This document shows positions 95 through 35,575 of a stretch of DNA of 61,957 nt, in pieces (positions within the stretch are counted from its first letter, which is position 1; each line of letters starts with the position of its first letter). The DNA is from Prevotella sp. GTDB taxonomy: Bacteria; Bacteroidota; Bacteroidia; Bacteroidales; Bacteroidaceae. The DNA is taken from assembly GCA_017557405.1 (NCBI GenBank), contig JAFYYV010000032.1, positions 1-61,957 on the forward strand. Direction: 5' to 3'. The position numbers and the translations under genes are program-made. Below the pieces are notes generated by a model. It did no database searches, had not been told where the DNA came from, and was given only the letters and a program-made list of their open reading frames with translations.

Positions 95-194
95 CCAAAT
101 GAGGAGGTCAAAAGCTACAAATGAGTCAGTCAAAGCTATGCAATGAGACGGTCAAAGACCATCAATGACGCCCTCAAATGCCACATTTGAGAGG
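95..194 (+). repeat. Degenerate ~22-bp tandem repeat, about four units
   Basis: Successive units of 21-23 bp each follow the pattern AATGAgnnGGTCAAAGCTATGC with drift between units. The same unit recurs in either orientation near 27.1, 28.4-28.6, 48.5-48.7 and 56.2-56.3 kb. There are no conserved-repeat/unique-spacer blocks, so it is not a CRISPR array. No coding potential is apparent. Confidence 0.7.
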
Positions 195-4216: not shown

Positions 4217-7200
4217 ATGAGGAGAGTCCTGACCGTCATCATACTGTTTTCAGTGTGTCTGCTGGTGTTTGGCCAAGGTGGGCATTTTTACACGTCGGAA
4301 AAGTTGTCGAGCAACCAGATCATCGACATCTGTCAGGACAAGACTGGCTACATCTGGGTGGGAACCGAATACGGTTTGAGCAAGTACGATGGATATCGTT
4401 TCACGAACTACCTCAATGAACCACAAGACACGACTTCGCTTTGCAGCAATGTCGTCTCTTTCCTTTTCACCGATACGAAAGGCAATTTGTGGGTGGGTAC
4501 CCGCAGAGGGTTGGACCTCTACAACCCTGTCTCAGATCAATTCGAACACATCACGATGGAGGGTGCAAAGGATGTTCCTCGCATCAATCACATCATTCAA
4601 GAAGACGACCAACACCTCTTGGTAGGAACTGCTGGTTATGGCCTCTTCCGACTCGACATCGCCAGCCATCGCACGCAGAAACTCGAGGGCTATGCTCTTG
4701 AAGACAACGACTATTTCAGTCATATCCTCATCGATAGCGAAGGCGCTTTCTGGAAATCGGGTCATGGCAACAAGATCATTCGCCGCGCCCCTGATGGCCA
4801 ACTGCGTGAGTTCGAATCGCCTTTTGGAACGGTGACCGATTTTGTCGACTACGAGGGCGGAGTGGTCATGGTATGCATCCATGGTCTGCTCTATTATCGC
4901 GATGGAAAGCTCCACACTGACTATTTCAGCCAAGAGTCGCTGGGAGGTAAGGATCTCCTCTTCCGCACAGCCATGACCGATCGGCGTGGCAACCTATTTG
5001 TGGGTACCATGGGCAACGGACTCTGTTGGGTTCCACGAGGCGAACGGCAGATGAAGAGGTATATGTATCAAAGTGCATCGTTCGACCTCAACACGTCGAA
5101 TGTTTGGACGCTCTTCGAAGACAACCAGGACAACCTTTGGGTGGGTTGTCAGAAACGCGGTCTGCTGCTGCTTCCTCAAGCCAAACCCCAGTTCCGCAGT
5201 TGGAAGTTTGCCGACCTACACATGAATATCGGAGGGTCGCTCACATCCCTTTGTGATGGTGGAAATGGAGTCGTATGGTGCGCTGTACAGAACAATGGAA
5301 TCTTTGCACTAGATGCCGAAGGGCGCATGGTGGCTCATCCTTCCTCACCCGAAGGCACCTACATTCTCTATCGTGACAAGCGGGGCAACTACTGGGTGGG
5401 TACCAATGGCTGTATCTATTCTTATCAACCACAGACAGGCCAAGCCCAACTGAAAATCTCTTTCAGCAACGGCTTTATCAATGCCATCACCGATGATGGT
5501 CGCGGCCACCTTTTCTTCTCCTTGTATGGTGAGGGACTCTGCTGCTACGATACTGCCAGTGGTCAGATACAGAAATACTCGATGCGCCAGCAAGACGAGA
5601 AACGCGGGCGTTTGCACAACGATTGGATATCTTCCCTGTTCGTTGATAGCCGAGGAAAACTATGGATTTGCTCGGCCTCGGGCGTAAACTGCTACGATCC
5701 CGTTGCCGACCACTTTCACCCCTATGGCTGGGAGGTCATTCTCGACTATCATGCCGTTGAATCCATTTGCGAGACTTCTGACCATCAGATTCTTTTCGGC
5801 ACGGCCACAGGACTCTACATCTATGATGTCAAAAAGAAAGAGGCCGTTCCATTTCCCGGAGCTGAGGTACTGGCCAATAAAATCATCTGTTCCATCGTTG
5901 AAGACCGCTCGGGCGACCTATGGTGCAGTACCACGATGGGCATTTGGCAATATCAGCGTCAGAAGAAGAGCTTTGTGAGCTATATGCATGGCAACGGACT
6001 CCTCAGCCGAGAGTATGTCAACGGAGTAGCCATGCACACGCCTGATGATCGAGTGTGGTTTGGCCTCAGCGATGGCATCACCTCCTTCCTCCCCGAAGCT
6101 TTGCAGGGCAATCATCAGAAGCAGGGTGTTGTCCATCTCACGGGTCTTTTCATTGGCGGCAATGCCGTCAACGGCTCCACTCTCTCCGATGGGAAGCCTG
6201 TAGTCAACGGTCCCATAGCCGAAACCGACCGTATTGAACTGTCGTATATTGACAACACGTTCACGATGGAGTTCTCCCTGCTAAACTACTCCAATGCTGA
6301 GAGTGTGCTCTACGAGTATCGCCTCAATGGCAGTTCCGAATGGACTCGAACACTCGATGGCAGTAATGTCGTGTCGTTCCACCATCTGCAACCAGGTTCC
6401 TATGTCATCGAAGTGAGAGCTTTGGAGAACGGACTCTATACCGAATCGCAGACATTCCACATCACCGTTCGTCCTCCTTGGTATCGTTCCACACTCGCTT
6501 CTTTCATTTGGCTATTGTTGCTCGCCGCTGCCATTTGTCTTGTCGCATGGAGCTACCGGCGTCATGCCCGTCAGCAACTCAACGAAGACAAGATGAGGTT
6601 CCTCATCAATGCCACCCACGACATACGTTCACCTCTCACACTGATTACGAGTCCGCTCCACAAGTTATTGAAGCGCGACCTTCCTGGTGACGTTCGCGAT
6701 GATCTCAAAACCATCGAGCACAATGCTAGCCGTATTCAGAATCTTGTCACCCAGATTCTCGACATCCGAAAAATCGACAAGCAGCAGATGCGCCTACAAT
6801 GCCAAGAGACCGACATCGTGCAATATGTAGGCAACATCCTGAAAACCTACGAATACACCGCATGCGAGCGCGGCATCAAGCTCTCCTATGTGCCCACCAT
6901 CGACAAACTCCTCGTATGGGTAGACCGAAGCGGACTCGACAAGATTCTTGACAACCTTCTCTCCAACGCATTCAAATACACGTTTGATGAGGGTGAGATT
7001 CTCGTACGCATTTCCAAACCTGATTCTTCCACAGCTGAACTACAGGTCATCGACAATGGTATGGGCATCAAAGGCGACGTTCATAAGATTTTCGATCGTT
7101 TCTATCAAGGCTCCACCTCACGCGCACTTCATATTGAAGGAACGGGTATCGGACTCAACCTCTGCAAATCGATTGTCACCATGCATCATGGAACCATTGA

Positions 7201-23914: not shown

Positions 23915-25084
23915 CTAATATAGATTTCTCATTGTCTGCATCTTCGCCTCCGTCTCATCCCATTCCAATTGCTCACTGCTCTCCTTCAGCAGTCCTCCGC
24001 CCGCATGCAACATGCACGTGCGACCATCCATCTGCATGCATCTGAGCGACACGAAGAGCGATGTGCTCCGCTCGTCCTGGGCCTCCACCGCGAGGTTCAA
24101 CGGACCGCAATAGCCACTGTAATAGCGGCGTGGAGCCGATTCGTTGGCAAGAATGAAGTCCATCGCCTCGCCTTTCGGAATACCACAGACGGCTGGTGTG
24201 GGATGAAGGGCTTCCAACACCGCCCCCACTCCTTTCCCTTCGCGGAGGGTGAATCGGAAATCGCTTCTGAGATGCGCAAGGTTGCCCGCACGCACCGTTC
24301 GAGGTCCTTGTTCCTCGATGTTGAGCGCCAGGCTTTCCAGCCGTTCATAGATGTAGGTGGCCACCAACCGTTGTTCTTCGATGTTCTTGTCCGACCATCT
24401 TATTCCTCCATCGGCCGTTTGCAGGGGCGTGTCGAATTTCAGATGCCGACCGCGCAGCACCATCGTACCCGCCAGCGCCATCGTGGAATAGAGCCCTCCG
24501 GCATCCTGCAGCAACACCTCGGGCGTCGCCATCAGCCACGTGCCACTCTCCCGTGTGCTCACCAACGCCACGAACATGCGCGGATAGGATTGGCAGGCAC
24601 GCAGGAACAACTGTTCGGCATCGATGTCGTCCTCAATCTCGTCCTTGCTCTGTCGTGCCAACACAATCTTCCTGAACCGACCTTCCTGCAACTCGTGGTG
24701 GAACATCTCGAAGCATTGGTGATAAACAGCACGGTCGTGCATTGAACGTTGAACATTGAACGTTGATGATTGAAGATTGAACATTGATTCATCCTCCTTC
24801 ATCCTTCTTCCTTCATCCTTCATCCCCCTTCCATCATCCTTCATCCCCTTTCCATCATCCTTCATCCTTCTTCCTTCATCCTTCATCACTTTGACGCAAG
24901 TCACCCTGTCGGGTCGAATGAGCAGCAACGGACAGTCGTCAGTCACCACGAAGGGAGCGAAAACAAACCCCTCGCGGCCTTCCAAGTCCATCGCCGATGC
25001 CAATCGGCAAGGCTCGCCATCCAATTGCTCCACACGCACGTACTCCTCAGCGTATGGCATCCTATAGCAGGCAAAAGAGTTCAT
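23915..25084 (-). CDS. menF: Isochorismate synthase with an in-frame repeat insertion
   Basis: MenF isomerises chorismate to isochorismate, the entry step of menaquinone synthesis. The 389-residue protein has the chorismate-binding C-terminal region: 'KIVLARQ', 'TWLMATPEVLL', 'LAGTM', 'AVCGIPKGEAMDFI', 'YYSGYCGPL' and 'CMLHAGGGLLKESSEQLEWDE'. Residues about 66-115 are an oddity: a run of Met/Lys/Asp/Glu/Gly units (MKDEGRR, MKDDGKG, ...) followed by 'SMFNLQSSTFNVQRSM', encoded by two families of 7-bp tandem repeats. This lies between the N-terminal domain and the catalytic domain, so function may survive. It heads the menF-menD-menB-menC series. Confidence 0.92.
   Translation of the reverse strand: MNSFACYRMPYAEEYVRVEQLDGEPCRLASAMDLEGREGFVFAPFVVTDDCPLLLIRPDRVTCVKVMKDEGRRMKDDGKGMKDDGRGMKDEGRRMKEDESMFNLQSSTFNVQRSMHDRAVYHQCFEMFHHELQEGRFRKIVLARQSKDEIEDDIDAEQLFLRACQSYPRMFVALVSTRESGTWLMATPEVLLQDAGGLYSTMALAGTMVLRGRHLKFDTPLQTADGGIRWSDKNIEEQRLVATYIYERLESLALNIEEQGPRTVRAGNLAHLRSDFRFTLREGKGVGAVLEALHPTPAVCGIPKGEAMDFILANESAPRRYYSGYCGPLNLAVEAQDERSTSLFVSLRCMQMDGRTCMLHAGGGLLKESSEQLEWDETEAKMQTMRNLY
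24740..24888. repeat. In-frame 7-bp tandem repeats inside menF
   Basis: On the plus strand, 24740-24788 consists of ATTGAAC/GTTGAAC/ATTGAAG heptamers and 24787-24887 of TTCATCC/TTCTTCC/CTTCATC-type heptamers. The block of about 149 bp keeps the menF frame open and adds roughly 49 low-complexity residues. The same two families occur in intergenic DNA at 23813-23850 and 28790-28980. Confidence 0.88.
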
Positions 25085-26974: not shown

Positions 26975-26976
26975 AT

Positions 26977-27129
26977 GCTCACGTTGACCTTTGTCTTCTT
27001 CCGTTACGACTCGGCAAACTGAAAACAAGTTTTCTTCTGCTCTCGCTGCTCCGTCAGTTCGGGATAGCTATAATATAATTCTGCTTTCCTCTCACTAACT
27101 CGCATCTTTGACCGCCTCATTGCATAGCT
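26977..27129 (+). repeat. Left inverted-repeat arm of the ATPase unit
   Basis: It runs from GCTCACGTTGACC to CATTGCATAGCT. Inside are nested palindromes (GAAAAC-aa-GTTTTC at 27021-27034; AACTGA...TCAGTT), so a single strand could fold. The inner end carries one unit of the 22-bp GGTCAAAGCTATGCAATGA family in reverse orientation. Confidence 0.85.
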
Positions 27130-27159
27130 TTGACAAGTTCAAAGATGGCCCCGACATGT

Positions 27160-27189
27160 GTTGCGAAATTTTTCGTTGCGAAATTTTTC
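27160..27189. promoter_or_regulatory. 15-bp direct repeat upstream of the ATPase promoter, possible operator
   Basis: GTTGCGAAATTTTTC occurs twice in a row (27160-27174 and 27175-27189), followed by GCA. Each copy plus its next bases forms a palindrome GCGAAA-tt-TTTCGC. It lies about 20 bp before the -33 box, a location suited to a regulator; the ATPase's own C-terminal winged-helix-like region is one candidate (inference). Confidence 0.5.
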
Positions 27190-27208
27190 GCATAAAGTTT
27201 TCAATTCA

Positions 27209-27240
27209 TTTGTGAGTGTCAGATAAAAGTTGTATATTTG
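27209..27240 (+). promoter_or_regulatory. Promoter of the ATPase gene
   Basis: TTTG (27209-27212), 20 bp, TATATTTG (27233-27240): a consensus Bacteroidetes promoter placed inside the inverted-repeat unit, so the gene carries its own promoter. Confidence 0.75.
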
Positions 27241-27268
27241 CGGCATTAATGATGTAAAATGAGAGAAT

Positions 27269-28336
27269 ATGAATCCATTTAAGTTTGGCGTACTTGTTGA
27301 CGACGAGTTTTTCACCGATAGAAACGATGAGTTGAAAGAGGTTCAGTGGACACTGAATAGTGAAAACCATTTGATACTGATTAGTCCCAGAAGGTTTGGT
27401 AAGTCAAGCCTTGTAGCCAAGGCTGTCAAAGCCTCCGGGCGTCCATGCATATCTCTTAACATGCAGAATATGCTGAGTGTTGATGATTTTGCTTCTAAGC
27501 TTTTACGCGAGTTGTTCCGTTTATATCCAATGGAGCGCATCAAACACTTGATGTCTCATTTTAGAATTGTGCCCACGGTCTCGACTAATCCTGTGACTAA
27601 TGGTGTTGATGTTTCTTTCCAACCCGTGATAAACAGCATGGTGTTGTTGGAGGATGCAATGTCCTTGATAGAAAAAGTGAGCACGGAGAATAAAAGGCTG
27701 ATCGTGGTGCTTGATGAATTCCAAGAGATTCTGAACATCCGTACAGGGTTGGACAAACAACTGCGTTCCATCATGCAGGAACAGGAGCATCTAAATTATG
27801 TTCTTTTAGGAAGTCAGGAATCAATGATGGCAGAGATATTCGAACGGAAGAAGTCGCCCTTTTATCATTTCGGAAAGCTGATGCATCTTGACAAGATTCC
27901 GTATGATGACTTCAAAGAATATGTTTCTGCTCGTCTGCCATCAAAAGGGGAAAAAGATTTGAATGGTATTGTAGAGGAGATATTGGACTTTACCAGTCTT
28001 CATCCCTACTATACCCAGCAGCTGTCTGCCCAAGTTTGGGACATGATGACTTATGAAAACCTCACAGATGGGGTTGTGTGGGAAGCCATCAGCAAGATAG
28101 TACGAACGCATGATTTGGATTTCGAACGTCTTTGGTTGAACTTTAACCGTACAGATCGCTCCATTATGATTAGTTTGAGTAAAGGTTTCAACCCCTTACA
28201 GAATCGCCAAGTGGCCACCAGTACATCGTTCAGCGGAATCAAGAGATTGATGAAGGCAGGATATGTCATACGTGTGAATGACTATGAGATAGAAGACCCA
28301 TTCTTTAAGGAATGGATCATCAGGTTCTGTAATTAA
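27269..28336 (+). CDS. AAA ATPase of the ATPase_2/'archaeal ATPase' type
   Basis: The 355-residue protein has a P-loop 'LISPRRFGKSSLVAKA' near residue 37 (the PRRxGKSS form typical of this family), Walker B 'LIVVLDEFQEIL' near 150, and a sensor-like 'VLLGSQESMM' near 185. The C-terminal region has a winged-helix-like part ending 'VNDYEIEDPFFKEWIIRF', the usual tail of these ATPases. No membrane segment or signal is seen. These proteins are often present in many copies in Bacteroidetes and archaea with unknown roles. The codon usage looks more AT-rich than the neighbouring men and lysS genes (visual impression, not measured). The gene is enclosed by long inverted repeats. Confidence 0.88.
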   Translation: MNPFKFGVLVDDEFFTDRNDELKEVQWTLNSENHLILISPRRFGKSSLVAKAVKASGRPCISLNMQNMLSVDDFASKLLRELFRLYPMERIKHLMSHFRIVPTVSTNPVTNGVDVSFQPVINSMVLLEDAMSLIEKVSTENKRLIVVLDEFQEILNIRTGLDKQLRSIMQEQEHLNYVLLGSQESMMAEIFERKKSPFYHFGKLMHLDKIPYDDFKEYVSARLPSKGEKDLNGIVEEILDFTSLHPYYTQQLSAQVWDMMTYENLTDGVVWEAISKIVRTHDLDFERLWLNFNRTDRSIMISLSKGFNPLQNRQVATSTSFSGIKRLMKAGYVIRVNDYEIEDPFFKEWIIRFCN

Positions 28337-28350
28337 GTTGGAAGGGCAAC

Positions 28351-28504
28351 AGCTATGCAATGAGGCGGTCAAAACTGCGCGTTAGTGAGAGGAGAGCAGA
28401 ATCACATTCTAACTATCCCGAACTGACGGAGCAGCGAGAGCAGAAGAAAACTTGTTTTCAGTTTGCCGAGTCGTGACGGAAGAAGACAAAAGGTCAACGT
28501 GAGC
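28351..28504 (-). repeat. Right inverted-repeat arm of the ATPase unit
   Basis: It is the reverse complement of the left arm with scattered substitutions and one extra base. It begins 15 bp after the ATPase stop codon. Confidence 0.85.
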
Positions 28505-28590
28505 AGTTTCGACGGCTATGAAATGACACCGTCAAAGCAGTGCAATGAGCGGGCTAAAAGCCCACAATAACGGCGTTATTTGTGGTCTTT
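28505..28590 (+). repeat. Further units of the ~22-bp repeat family
   Basis: Units such as GGCTATGAAATGACACCGTC and AAAGCAGTGCAATGAGCGGG continue beyond the right arm, followed by an inverted pair AAAGCCCACAATAACG / CGTTATTTGTGGTCTTT (28555-28590) that can form a stem. Confidence 0.6.
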
Positions 28591-33036: not shown

Positions 33037-33068
33037 TTTGGTTTTTTGTTTACTAAATAGTATCTTTG
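33037..33068 (+). promoter_or_regulatory. Promoter upstream of the NAGLU-like gene
   Basis: TTTG (33037-33040), 20 bp, TATCTTTG (33061-33068). It lies 200 bp before the start codon and directly before the promoter-bearing repeat; a second TATCTTTG (33237-33244) lies 25 bp before the ATG. Confidence 0.6.
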
Positions 33069-33087
33069 GCTTCGCAGAATTTCACAC

Positions 33088-33244
33088 TACCTTTGACCTT
33101 CGGTCGAAGATAGGCTGCATCTCAACAATAAAAATAAAAGCGATTTTATTTGGCATTGTGCTCGATTTAGATAAAAATCTCACGCTCAAGAATGCAAATA
33201 TATTTGTATTCTCTTCGCTAAATCGATTTTTTGCACTATCTTTG
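33088..33244 (+). repeat. Promoter-bearing repeat element (long copy) upstream of the NAGLU-like gene
   Basis: It starts TACCTTTGACCTTCGGTCGAA (a -7-like box overlapping a small GACC/GGTC hairpin), continues GGCTGCATCTCAACAATAAA, then a hairpin AATAAAA-gcga-TTTTATT and TGGCATTGTGCTCG. It ends with AT-rich sequence and TATCTTTG. A shorter copy precedes lysS (36975) and decayed copies lie at 21151 and 25121. Confidence 0.7.
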
Positions 33245-33268
33245 CAAAAAATAAAAACATACAATCGC

Positions 33269-35575
33269 ATGAGAAACATTCTTAGCATCGTTTTCTGGCT
33301 CATGGCCTTCACGGCTACTGCCAACCCTGTGACTGACATGCTGGAACGCATTGACCGCGGCGCATCGAAGAAATTCAAGATTGTGCTGAGCGAGTCGAAG
33401 AACAAGGGGGACACCCAAAAGGACTTTTTCGAGCTGTCGGGGCAGGGAGGAAAAGTGGTCGTGAAAGGCAACTCGTGGGTGAGCATCGCCACGGGCGTGA
33501 ACTGGTATCTGAAACACTACTGTGGCATTCACATCGCGTGGAACAACCCGAAGGCGACTTTGCCGGCGAAACTGCCTGCCATTCAGAAGCCTGAGCGGCA
33601 CGAGACATCCCTCACACTGCGCTACGACTTCAACTACTGCACGTTCTCCTACTCTATGGCTTTCTGGGATTGGAAACGCTGGGAACAGGAGATTGACTGG
33701 ATGGCGCTGCACGGCGTGAACCTGCCCTTGGCGGTGGTGGGCGAGGAATGCGTGTGGAGGAACATGCTGCTGAAGCTCGGCTACACGAAGGAGGAGGTGA
33801 ACCAGTTCATCGCGGGTCCTGCGTTCCTGGCTTGGTGGGAGATGAACAACCTGGAGGGTTGGGGTGGTCCGCTACCCGATTCGTGGTATGCACAACAGGA
33901 GGTGTTGCAGAAGAAGATTCTGAACCGTATGAAGCAGTGGGGCATGCACCCCGTGCTGCCTGGCTACAGCGGAATGGTGCCCAGCAACGCCCGCGAGAAA
34001 CTGGGGTTGAACGTGGCGGAGGGAGGTCTGTGGAACGGCTACACGCGTCCGGCTTTCCTGCAACCCACCGATGAGCGTTTCCATGAGATTGCGACCTTGT
34101 ATTACAACGAACTCACAAACCTCTTCGGTCGTGCCGACTACTATTCGATGGACCCCTTCCACGAGGGTGGAAAGACCGATAGCGTGGACCTCGACGCCTC
34201 GGGCAAGGCCATCATGCACGAGATGAAGCTGGTGAACCCGAAAGCCACGTGGGTGGTGCAAGGGTGGCAGGAGAATCCACGCGAGAAGATGATTGACAAT
34301 CTGCAGACGGGTGATCTGCTTATCCTTGACCTGTTCTCGGAATGTCGACCGAAATGGGGTATCGCCTCCATCTTCCAGGACGACCGCGGATATGGGAAAC
34401 ACGAATGGCTGTTCTGCATGCTCGAGAACTTCGGTGGGAACATCGGTTTGCACGGGCGTATGGATCAATTGCTGAACAACTGGGCGCAGGCGCTGAAGCC
34501 TTCGGCGAACACTGAACACCTGCGAGGCATCGGCTTCACTATGGAGGGCTCGGAGAACAATCCCGTGATGTTTGAGTTGATGAGCGAGCTGGCGTGGGTG
34601 AACAATTCACAATTGACAATTGACAATTCAGAATTCACAATTCATAATTCACAATTTAAGGGGGCTTCTTTTAAAGAAAAATGGCTGCGTGGCTACTGCA
34701 GGGCGCGATATGGGGTGAGCGACCCGGCGATTGAGGAGGCGTGGATGATTCTGGCCAATTCGATCTACAACTGTCCGGCGGGCAACAACCAGCAGGGGCC
34801 TCACGAGAGCATCTTCTGTGGACGTCCATCGCAGAACAACTACCAAGTGAGTTCGTGGTCGAAGATGTCGAACTATTACGACCCTGACGACACTCGGCGT
34901 GCTGCCTTGATGTTCGCCAGTGTGGCTCAGAAATATCGTGGCAACAACAACTATGAATACGACCTCGTGGACATTGTACGACAGGCGCTGGCCGATCAGG
35001 GGCGCGTGCAATACCAGCAGACGATGGCCGACTATAAAGCTTTCCGCCGCGAGCCTTTCCGCCGTGATTCAGAGCGGTTCCTCGAGATGATTCTCGCCCA
35101 GGACAAGCTGCTCGGCACTCGTTCGGAATTCCGTGTTGGTCGTTGGATTGAGCAGGCTCGTTCGCTGGGCAACACACCTGAGGAGAAGGACCTCTACGAG
35201 TGGAACGCCCGTGTGCAGATCACCACCTGGGGCAACCGCGTATGTGCCGACAAGGGTGGATTGCGCGACTATGCCCACAAGGAGTGGCAGGGCATCCTGA
35301 AGGACTTCTACTACCAGCGTTGGGCGACCTATTTCAAGGCGCTGAGCGACCAGATGGTGGCAAAATCGAAACCCGACATCGAGAAGCTGGGAAGTGGCAA
35401 ATACAAGGGGTTGACCACCGATGAACTCTTCGCGCTCGCACTCGAGCAGGACGTGAAAATCGACTGGTATGCCCAAGAGGAGCCTTGGACGCTGCAGCAC
35501 AATCCCTACTCCTCGAAACCTGAGGGTGAAGCGGTGGAGGTGGCAAGAGAGATTTGTGAGAAATACCTGCAGTGA
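33269..35575 (+). CDS. Alpha-N-acetylglucosaminidase (NAGLU, GH89)
   Basis: GH89 enzymes release terminal alpha-linked GlcNAc (in animals from heparan sulfate; in bacteria also from mucin O-glycans). The 768-residue product has a signal peptide ('MRNILSIVFWLMAFTATA'), the NAGLU N-terminal domain (about 25-115), the TIM barrel with 'YDFNYCTFSYSMAFWDWKRW', 'EIDWMALHGVNLPLAVVG', 'DPFHEGGKTDSVDL' and 'GIGFTMEGSENNPVMFEL' (catalytic Glu region), and the helical C-terminal domain. ATG at 33269 starts the signal peptide. Oddity: about 20 residues near 445-465, 'NNSQLTIDNSEF...', are encoded by a 7-bp tandem repeat inserted in frame between barrel and C-terminal domain. An HGSNAT-like gene follows. 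Confidence 0.93.
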   Translation: MRNILSIVFWLMAFTATANPVTDMLERIDRGASKKFKIVLSESKNKGDTQKDFFELSGQGGKVVVKGNSWVSIATGVNWYLKHYCGIHIAWNNPKATLPAKLPAIQKPERHETSLTLRYDFNYCTFSYSMAFWDWKRWEQEIDWMALHGVNLPLAVVGEECVWRNMLLKLGYTKEEVNQFIAGPAFLAWWEMNNLEGWGGPLPDSWYAQQEVLQKKILNRMKQWGMHPVLPGYSGMVPSNAREKLGLNVAEGGLWNGYTRPAFLQPTDERFHEIATLYYNELTNLFGRADYYSMDPFHEGGKTDSVDLDASGKAIMHEMKLVNPKATWVVQGWQENPREKMIDNLQTGDLLILDLFSECRPKWGIASIFQDDRGYGKHEWLFCMLENFGGNIGLHGRMDQLLNNWAQALKPSANTEHLRGIGFTMEGSENNPVMFELMSELAWVNNSQLTIDNSEFTIHNSQFKGASFKEKWLRGYCRARYGVSDPAIEEAWMILANSIYNCPAGNNQQGPHESIFCGRPSQNNYQVSSWSKMSNYYDPDDTRRAALMFASVAQKYRGNNNYEYDLVDIVRQALADQGRVQYQQTMADYKAFRREPFRRDSERFLEMILAQDKLLGTRSEFRVGRWIEQARSLGNTPEEKDLYEWNARVQITTWGNRVCADKGGLRDYAHKEWQGILKDFYYQRWATYFKALSDQMVAKSKPDIEKLGSGKYKGLTTDELFALALEQDVKIDWYAQEEPWTLQHNPYSSKPEGEAVEVAREICEKYLQ
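34603..34658 (+). repeat. In-frame 7-bp tandem repeat inside the NAGLU-like gene
   Basis: Eight consecutive heptamers of the CAATTCA/CAATTGA/GAATTCA/TAATTCA type (56 bp) encode an Asn/Ser/Thr/Ile-rich loop. The family is the same as in many intergenic blocks of the window, and the host frame is kept. Confidence 0.88.

Follow-up and report, generated by a model that had tools for sequence, protein, structure and literature searches.

We analysed a window of 61,957 nucleotides (nt) from Prevotella sp. (the whole of the analysed stretch, contig JAFYYV010000032.1), in which a gene for a P-loop ATPase of 355 amino acids lies on the forward strand at 27269-28336 between the two arms of a long inverted repeat, a left arm at 26976-27129 (minus strand) and a right arm at 28351-28505 (plus strand). 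The original prediction had described near-identical inverted repeats of about 153 base pairs (bp) around a single ATP-binding protein gene, and this description holds. Positions 26990-27129 and 28351-28490 are complementary at 94% over 140 nt, the outer ends contain an exact 17-nt match (26976-26992 and 28489-28505), and in a BLAST search of the own genome 26977-27129 and 28351-28504 align at 94% identity. A 22-bp piece of the repeat, on which the shuffle test was run, has three matches in the window and none in 100 dinucleotide shuffles, and we would place the 140-nt match far above the chance level. The ATPase gene is the only open reading frame (ORF) between the arms, and its product matches the Pfam family ATPase_2 (PF01637) with E = 9.2e-10 and 39.1 bits, the gathering score being 33.2. 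The ORF list of the window shows no recombinase gene between the arms.

Upstream of the gene we find the boxes TTTG (27209-27212) and TATATTTG (27233-27240), which we take, going by the consensus, to be a putative promoter of the Bacteroidetes type. Between the left arm and this putative promoter lies a feature that had been overlooked before, a 15-bp-spaced twin palindrome, TTGCGAAATTTTTCGTTGCGAAATTTTTCGCATAA, at 27161-27195 on the plus strand (core 27164-27190). It is a conserved companion of the gene and a putative operator.

Next, we looked for this site upstream of the orthologues of the ATPase. The 124 genes of two collections, which share genomes (125 loci), together with the window gave 103 non-redundant orthologues after deduplication. 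Allowing at most one mismatch over 12 fixed positions and at most 200 nt to the start codon, the twin palindrome is present in 101 of the 103, as compared with one of 2060 shuffled sequences; such a conserved palindromic site in the gene's own promoter region is what we would expect of an autoregulated gene. The positive cases include the metagenome-assembled genomes (MAGs) of Fibrobacterales. The two exceptions are L274, where no site was seen, and L281, which has a single palindrome (numbers with L denote loci and numbers with G genomes). Read by eye, all 44 loci whose 5' end is intact show the palindrome (L203 and L204 are 5'-truncated and were excluded). The site takes the form GCGAAAAATTTCG-CAA-CGAAAAATTTCGC or TACGAAAAAAGTCG-TAA-CGAAAAAAGTCGTA, and in the own genome it occurs once at two or fewer mismatches. 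An attempt to relate the site class to columns of the protein alignment was confounded by clade.

Counted to the start codon, the distances of the site show modes close to 31, 48 and 95 nt. By eye, the site lies 5' of the -33 box in the nearest orthologues and between the -7 box and the ATG in most others, where the boxes are the putative ones of the consensus. Since the sequence of the site is constant while its position relative to the promoter shifts, it is likelier to be read at the level of DNA than as part of an RNA leader.

All 62 aligned members of the family match ATPase_2 at E <= 0.01. An AlphaFold2 model, with a mean predicted local distance difference test (pLDDT) value of 80.8, consists of an ATPase core with a helical lid and a C-terminal winged helix; a prediction from the single sequence was of no use (pLDDT 49.9). 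Structural comparison (VIA-align) matches the model over more than 310 residues each to 2QEN (PABY2304) and 2FNA (SSO1545), so that the predicted fold is most like the ATPase_2 fold of these two proteins, an archaeal-type family. The sequence identity to them is only 14-16%, and a sequence search of the PDB with the window ATPase gave no meaningful match (best E 0.025).

Taken together, the conservation of the site, the existence of subfamily-specific sites (see below) and the predicted winged helix lead us to a model of autoregulation. We consider it fairly probable that the gene is a roving single-gene unit, in which an ATPase_2 protein with a C-terminal winged helix is paired with a private twin-palindrome site at its promoter and acts as a putative autoregulated switch. 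The twin palindrome would most likely be bound by the winged helix in dimeric or oligomeric form, the bound ATPase may repress or tune its own promoter, and ATP binding or hydrolysis would switch its state. The gene itself, judging from its distribution and remnants, would spread horizontally into intergenic places and be lost repeatedly, at times leaving the 5' site behind.

We then asked whether more distant homologues have similar sites. We read 51 of them from the genus (25-35% identity; 11 plus 40 chosen from among the listed matches), and by eye the -33 region of most is covered by a dyad, two- or three-fold, with half-sites of a different sequence (among them ACACAAGTTTGTG, GTTACCTTTGGGTAAC, ATTATACC/GGTATAAT and TTAGTAATAA). 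Of the 51, 27 have a palindrome score of at least 10, compared with one of 51 when the best of ten shuffles is taken for each. A twin-repeat score of at least 9 is found in 45 of the 51, as against one of 51 shuffles and 44 of the 219 other genes whose upstream regions were available as controls. From this one may tentatively formulate a general rule, which we regard as possible rather than probable: ATPase_2-winged-helix genes would travel as single-gene switches, each with a private twin operator as its address, with a constant two-fold layout at the promoter and a half-site particular to each subfamily, and many of them could coexist in a cell without cross-talk.

The plasmid homologues set a limit to this rule. 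Ten of the 12 listed plasmid matches were fetched (two near-duplicates of H6 were omitted), and among the nine distant ones tested only two have a twin repeat at a shuffle p <= 0.005 (two of seven from other phyla, none of two from Bacteroidota). As most of them are without a twin repeat, the rule can be drawn from the genus sample only. The tenth record, a fragment outside the tested nine, is the Bacteroides plasmid pCACC737_3 (L355), on which a truncated orthologue with the twin palindrome adjoins a site-specific integrase. We also considered phages and plasmids as vehicles of the gene, and rejected this candidate: there is no close full-length homologue, and identity stays below 60% in all the records found, two distant ones from phages and 23 from plasmids.

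The original prediction had further stated that such ATPases occur in many copies in Bacteroidetes genomes. For distant homologues this can be maintained at the level of the genus, where 114 of 150 genomes contain homologues at E <= 0.001 and several contain more than one. It is not true of the own genome, in which the window ATPase is the sole homologue at this threshold. We found no role assigned to these homologues. With a twin site that is conserved and specific to the subfamily, their regulation can be tested directly, and one gains a handle on what each ATPase senses.

To what extent do the arms belong to the gene? The original prediction suggested that they bound a mobile unit and proposed to check whether they occur in pairs around ATPase genes, and neither is borne out by the loci read. 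In the own genome of 3.56 Mb, arm DNA matches at least 44 places at E <= 0.001, both arms counted (40 of 127 candidates were scored), and across the genus at least 74 of 150 genomes have matches (at most five candidates scored per genome). The 18 that we read of the 42 other places in the own genome show the arm to be a composite intergenic repeat, built of a 22-bp unit GTCAAAGCTATGCAATGAGGCG, a module b with the pattern ..GTTAGTGAGAGGAGAGCAGAAT..CTATCCCGAAC and a module c. Several of these copies carry tandem 22-bp units with modules, and no defined ends could be established there; next to the right arm itself, 22-bp-type units run on to about 28560. The other copies that we read are single or lie on the same strand. 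Among 47 other arm loci (these 18 and 29 in other genomes, some overlapping), none has an ATPase homologue within about 1.5 kb and none has an inverted pair. Conversely, the 125 orthologue loci (1.30 Mb, redundancy included) contain no arm pair, only three weak, partial and unpaired matches in two loci (L093, L198). The arm copies read elsewhere are thus mostly single, dispersed and unrelated to ATPase genes, which is half of what had been named as speaking against a mobile unit.

It would still be conceivable that a non-autonomous transposon has the ATPase as cargo and the arms as its terminal inverted repeats, given that two near-full-length inverted copies surround exactly one gene and that module c is 97.6% identical from arm to arm, as compared with about 80% at most to the other copies of the own genome compared. 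On the other hand, module b is only 88% identical between the arms, whereas that of the right arm is identical in 53 of 53 positions to three other copies in the own genome and that of the left arm, also in 53 of 53, to another. Since module b is nearer to copies elsewhere, the arms appear to have been in part separately assembled or gene-converted. Moreover, a scan up to 600 bp from the window ATPase gave no direct repeats at E <= 0.01, although short duplications escape it. The module b identities and the unpaired loci above largely refute the transposon, which we now consider highly improbable. Judging from the sequence, the arms are rather two dispersed intergenic repeat copies that happen to lie beside the gene; that they are its ends is not supported. 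For genomes of this kind this is a caution, as long inverted repeats flanking a gene can be chance dispersed repeats.

The mobility of the ATPase gene is nevertheless supported on grounds other than the arms. In a scan of 398 genomes of the genus (at most five candidates scored per genome), orthologues at E <= 1e-60 are present in at least 45, the own genome included, so that the distribution is patchy. Among GTDB species genomes we found 367 orthologue places with an alignment; the best 80 of these 367, which were kept, are, according to the record titles, mostly from Bacteroidales of gut and rumen, while three MAGs belong to Fibrobacterales and one to Victivallales. The flanks differ as well. 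Of the six neighbours of the gene in the window, only HU-type genes recur near the first 18 orthologues (at two loci), and extending this to all 125 loci adds no more than one EamA gene, 5.7 kb from the ATPase in an arrangement unlike that of the window (L178). By our own count from DNA comparison, about 30 of the 103 loci share a flank with another locus and the remainder share none, where pairs with at least 150 nt in common were counted and diverged synteny would go unseen. For example, both flanks are common in L182/L240, L190/L198, L222/L224/L226, L230/L232/L236 and L264/L265, and one flank in L184/L250/L261.

A present and an absent state can be compared in Fibrobacter, where an aminotransferase gene was found at 22 loci (in 22 of 41 genomes). 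At two of them (L285, L286) the arrangement palindrome-promoter-palindrome-ATPase follows directly behind the aminotransferase; a sugar transferase comes next in L259, which is from the same genome as L285, and none is visible in L286. At L295 the ATPase lies on the opposite side of the aminotransferase. At six loci the sugar transferase comes after the aminotransferase and there is no ATPase (in L296 the stop and start codons overlap), and at 13 neither ATPase nor sugar transferase was seen. This site is evidence for the presence and absence of the ATPase at one place, in another phylum. What stands of the proposed mobile ATPase unit is the apparent mobility of the gene, in view of its patchy distribution, the differing flanks, the Fibrobacterales MAGs and the Fibrobacter sites without ATPase, and what finds no support is a unit bounded by the arms.

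In L295 (G405) the stretch between aminotransferase and sugar transferase, where G399 has its ATPase, contains an ORF that by eye resembles an Abi-type gene; this interval is possibly a hotspot for single accessory genes. 5' of the sugar transferase gene in L304 and L259, a GTCATCC..GGATC-type repeat has next to it a repetition of sequence resembling the gene's 5' end, as if the GTCATCC..GGATC-type repeat inserted with target duplication. In the window's own genus, EamA genes occur in 60 of 150 genomes; in the 30 loci read, the window's included, no HU gene was seen beside EamA, and the empty site of the window could not be read from the EamA neighbours. In L127 and L138 EamA directly adjoins the NAGLU gene.

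There are signs that the gene has been lost as well. In the scan of the genus, 12 of 28 twin-palindrome sites have no intact ATPase orthologue nearby; nine of these were checked by tblastn and three by reading of ORFs (the second sites of G075 and G062, and G020:C27). By eye, beginnings of the ATPase are kept at L160, the second site of L090, L151 and L152, and pieces of the promoter at L156. The left flanks of L155 and L158, palindrome included, are shared with the filled loci L219 and L085, while the match on the right of L158 covers only 39 nt at 82%. The varying lengths of the remnants suggest decay. At E < 1e-10, direct repeats (49-127 nt long) accompany five of 46 ATPase loci, as against three of 276 random placements; counting all at E <= 0.01, the numbers are nine of 46 and ten of 276, where two of the nine are due to the palindrome itself. 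Some of these repeats resemble dispersed families (L188, L194). A different P-loop ATPase-like ORF is found 293 nt downstream of the orphan twin palindrome of L157 (G143; motif at 6880), with repeated sequence between the two.

Alternatively, the gene might move by means of the twin palindrome, which would then be an end for recombination or insertion instead of an operator. The unequal lengths of promoter and ORF start that, by eye, several of the sites without ATPase retain fit decay better than precise excision, a copy of the palindrome downstream is present in only 3 of 46 loci, and the paralogues have twin repeats of different sequence at the promoter position. As there is also no recombinase gene between the arms, we think this reading quite unlikely. 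Another option is that the gene serves in anti-phage defence, as a single-gene ATPase sensor whose basal expression is held low by the twin operator. The matches that bear on this are weak and may reflect no more than a P-loop ATPase of a generic kind. We recognised no effector domain, and the nine loci inspected have no partner gene next to the ATPase in common; a defence function therefore seems unlikely to us, though less so than an insertion end.

Compared with known systems, the putatively autoregulated ATPase differs from the Cdc6/Orc1 initiators in that its repeated site is part of the promoter region of its own gene and was found once in the own genome. The AbiE antitoxin is described as controlling its own expression through multiple inverted repeats on which it acts (PMC7319586). 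The putative control of the window ATPase over its own gene through repeated palindromes would be similar, whereas AbiE is a toxin-antitoxin pair and the protein here a stand-alone P-loop ATPase. The arms, with their 22-bp units and modules, resemble BrickBuilt, an intergenic miniature inverted-repeat transposable element of Porphyromonas gingivalis with 23-nt tandem repeats and flanking leader and tail subunits that bear inverted-repeat ends (PMC4596501); it belongs to another genus, and the arms have no established inverted-repeat ends. We found no literature on the twin-palindrome site of these ATPases or on the arm repeat in a search that covered few subscription papers, and we do not claim absence from print.

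Finally, some observations concern the repeats in general. Module c is present elsewhere in the genus, in other genomes, as tandem units of about 72 bp (L065, 1501-1721; L053, 1433-1573). An extra copy of the 22-bp unit lies near the contig end, at window positions 135-156 (minus strand), and several contigs of the own genome end close to 22-bp-type repeats. Two ORFs of the window, at 23915-25084 (minus strand; presumably isochorismate-synthase-like) and 33038-35575 (plus strand; presumably NAGLU-like), have in-frame low-complexity insertions (MKDEGRRMKDDGKGMKDD.. and NSQLTIDNSEFTIHNSQF), which resemble dispersed intergenic repeats within coding sequence.
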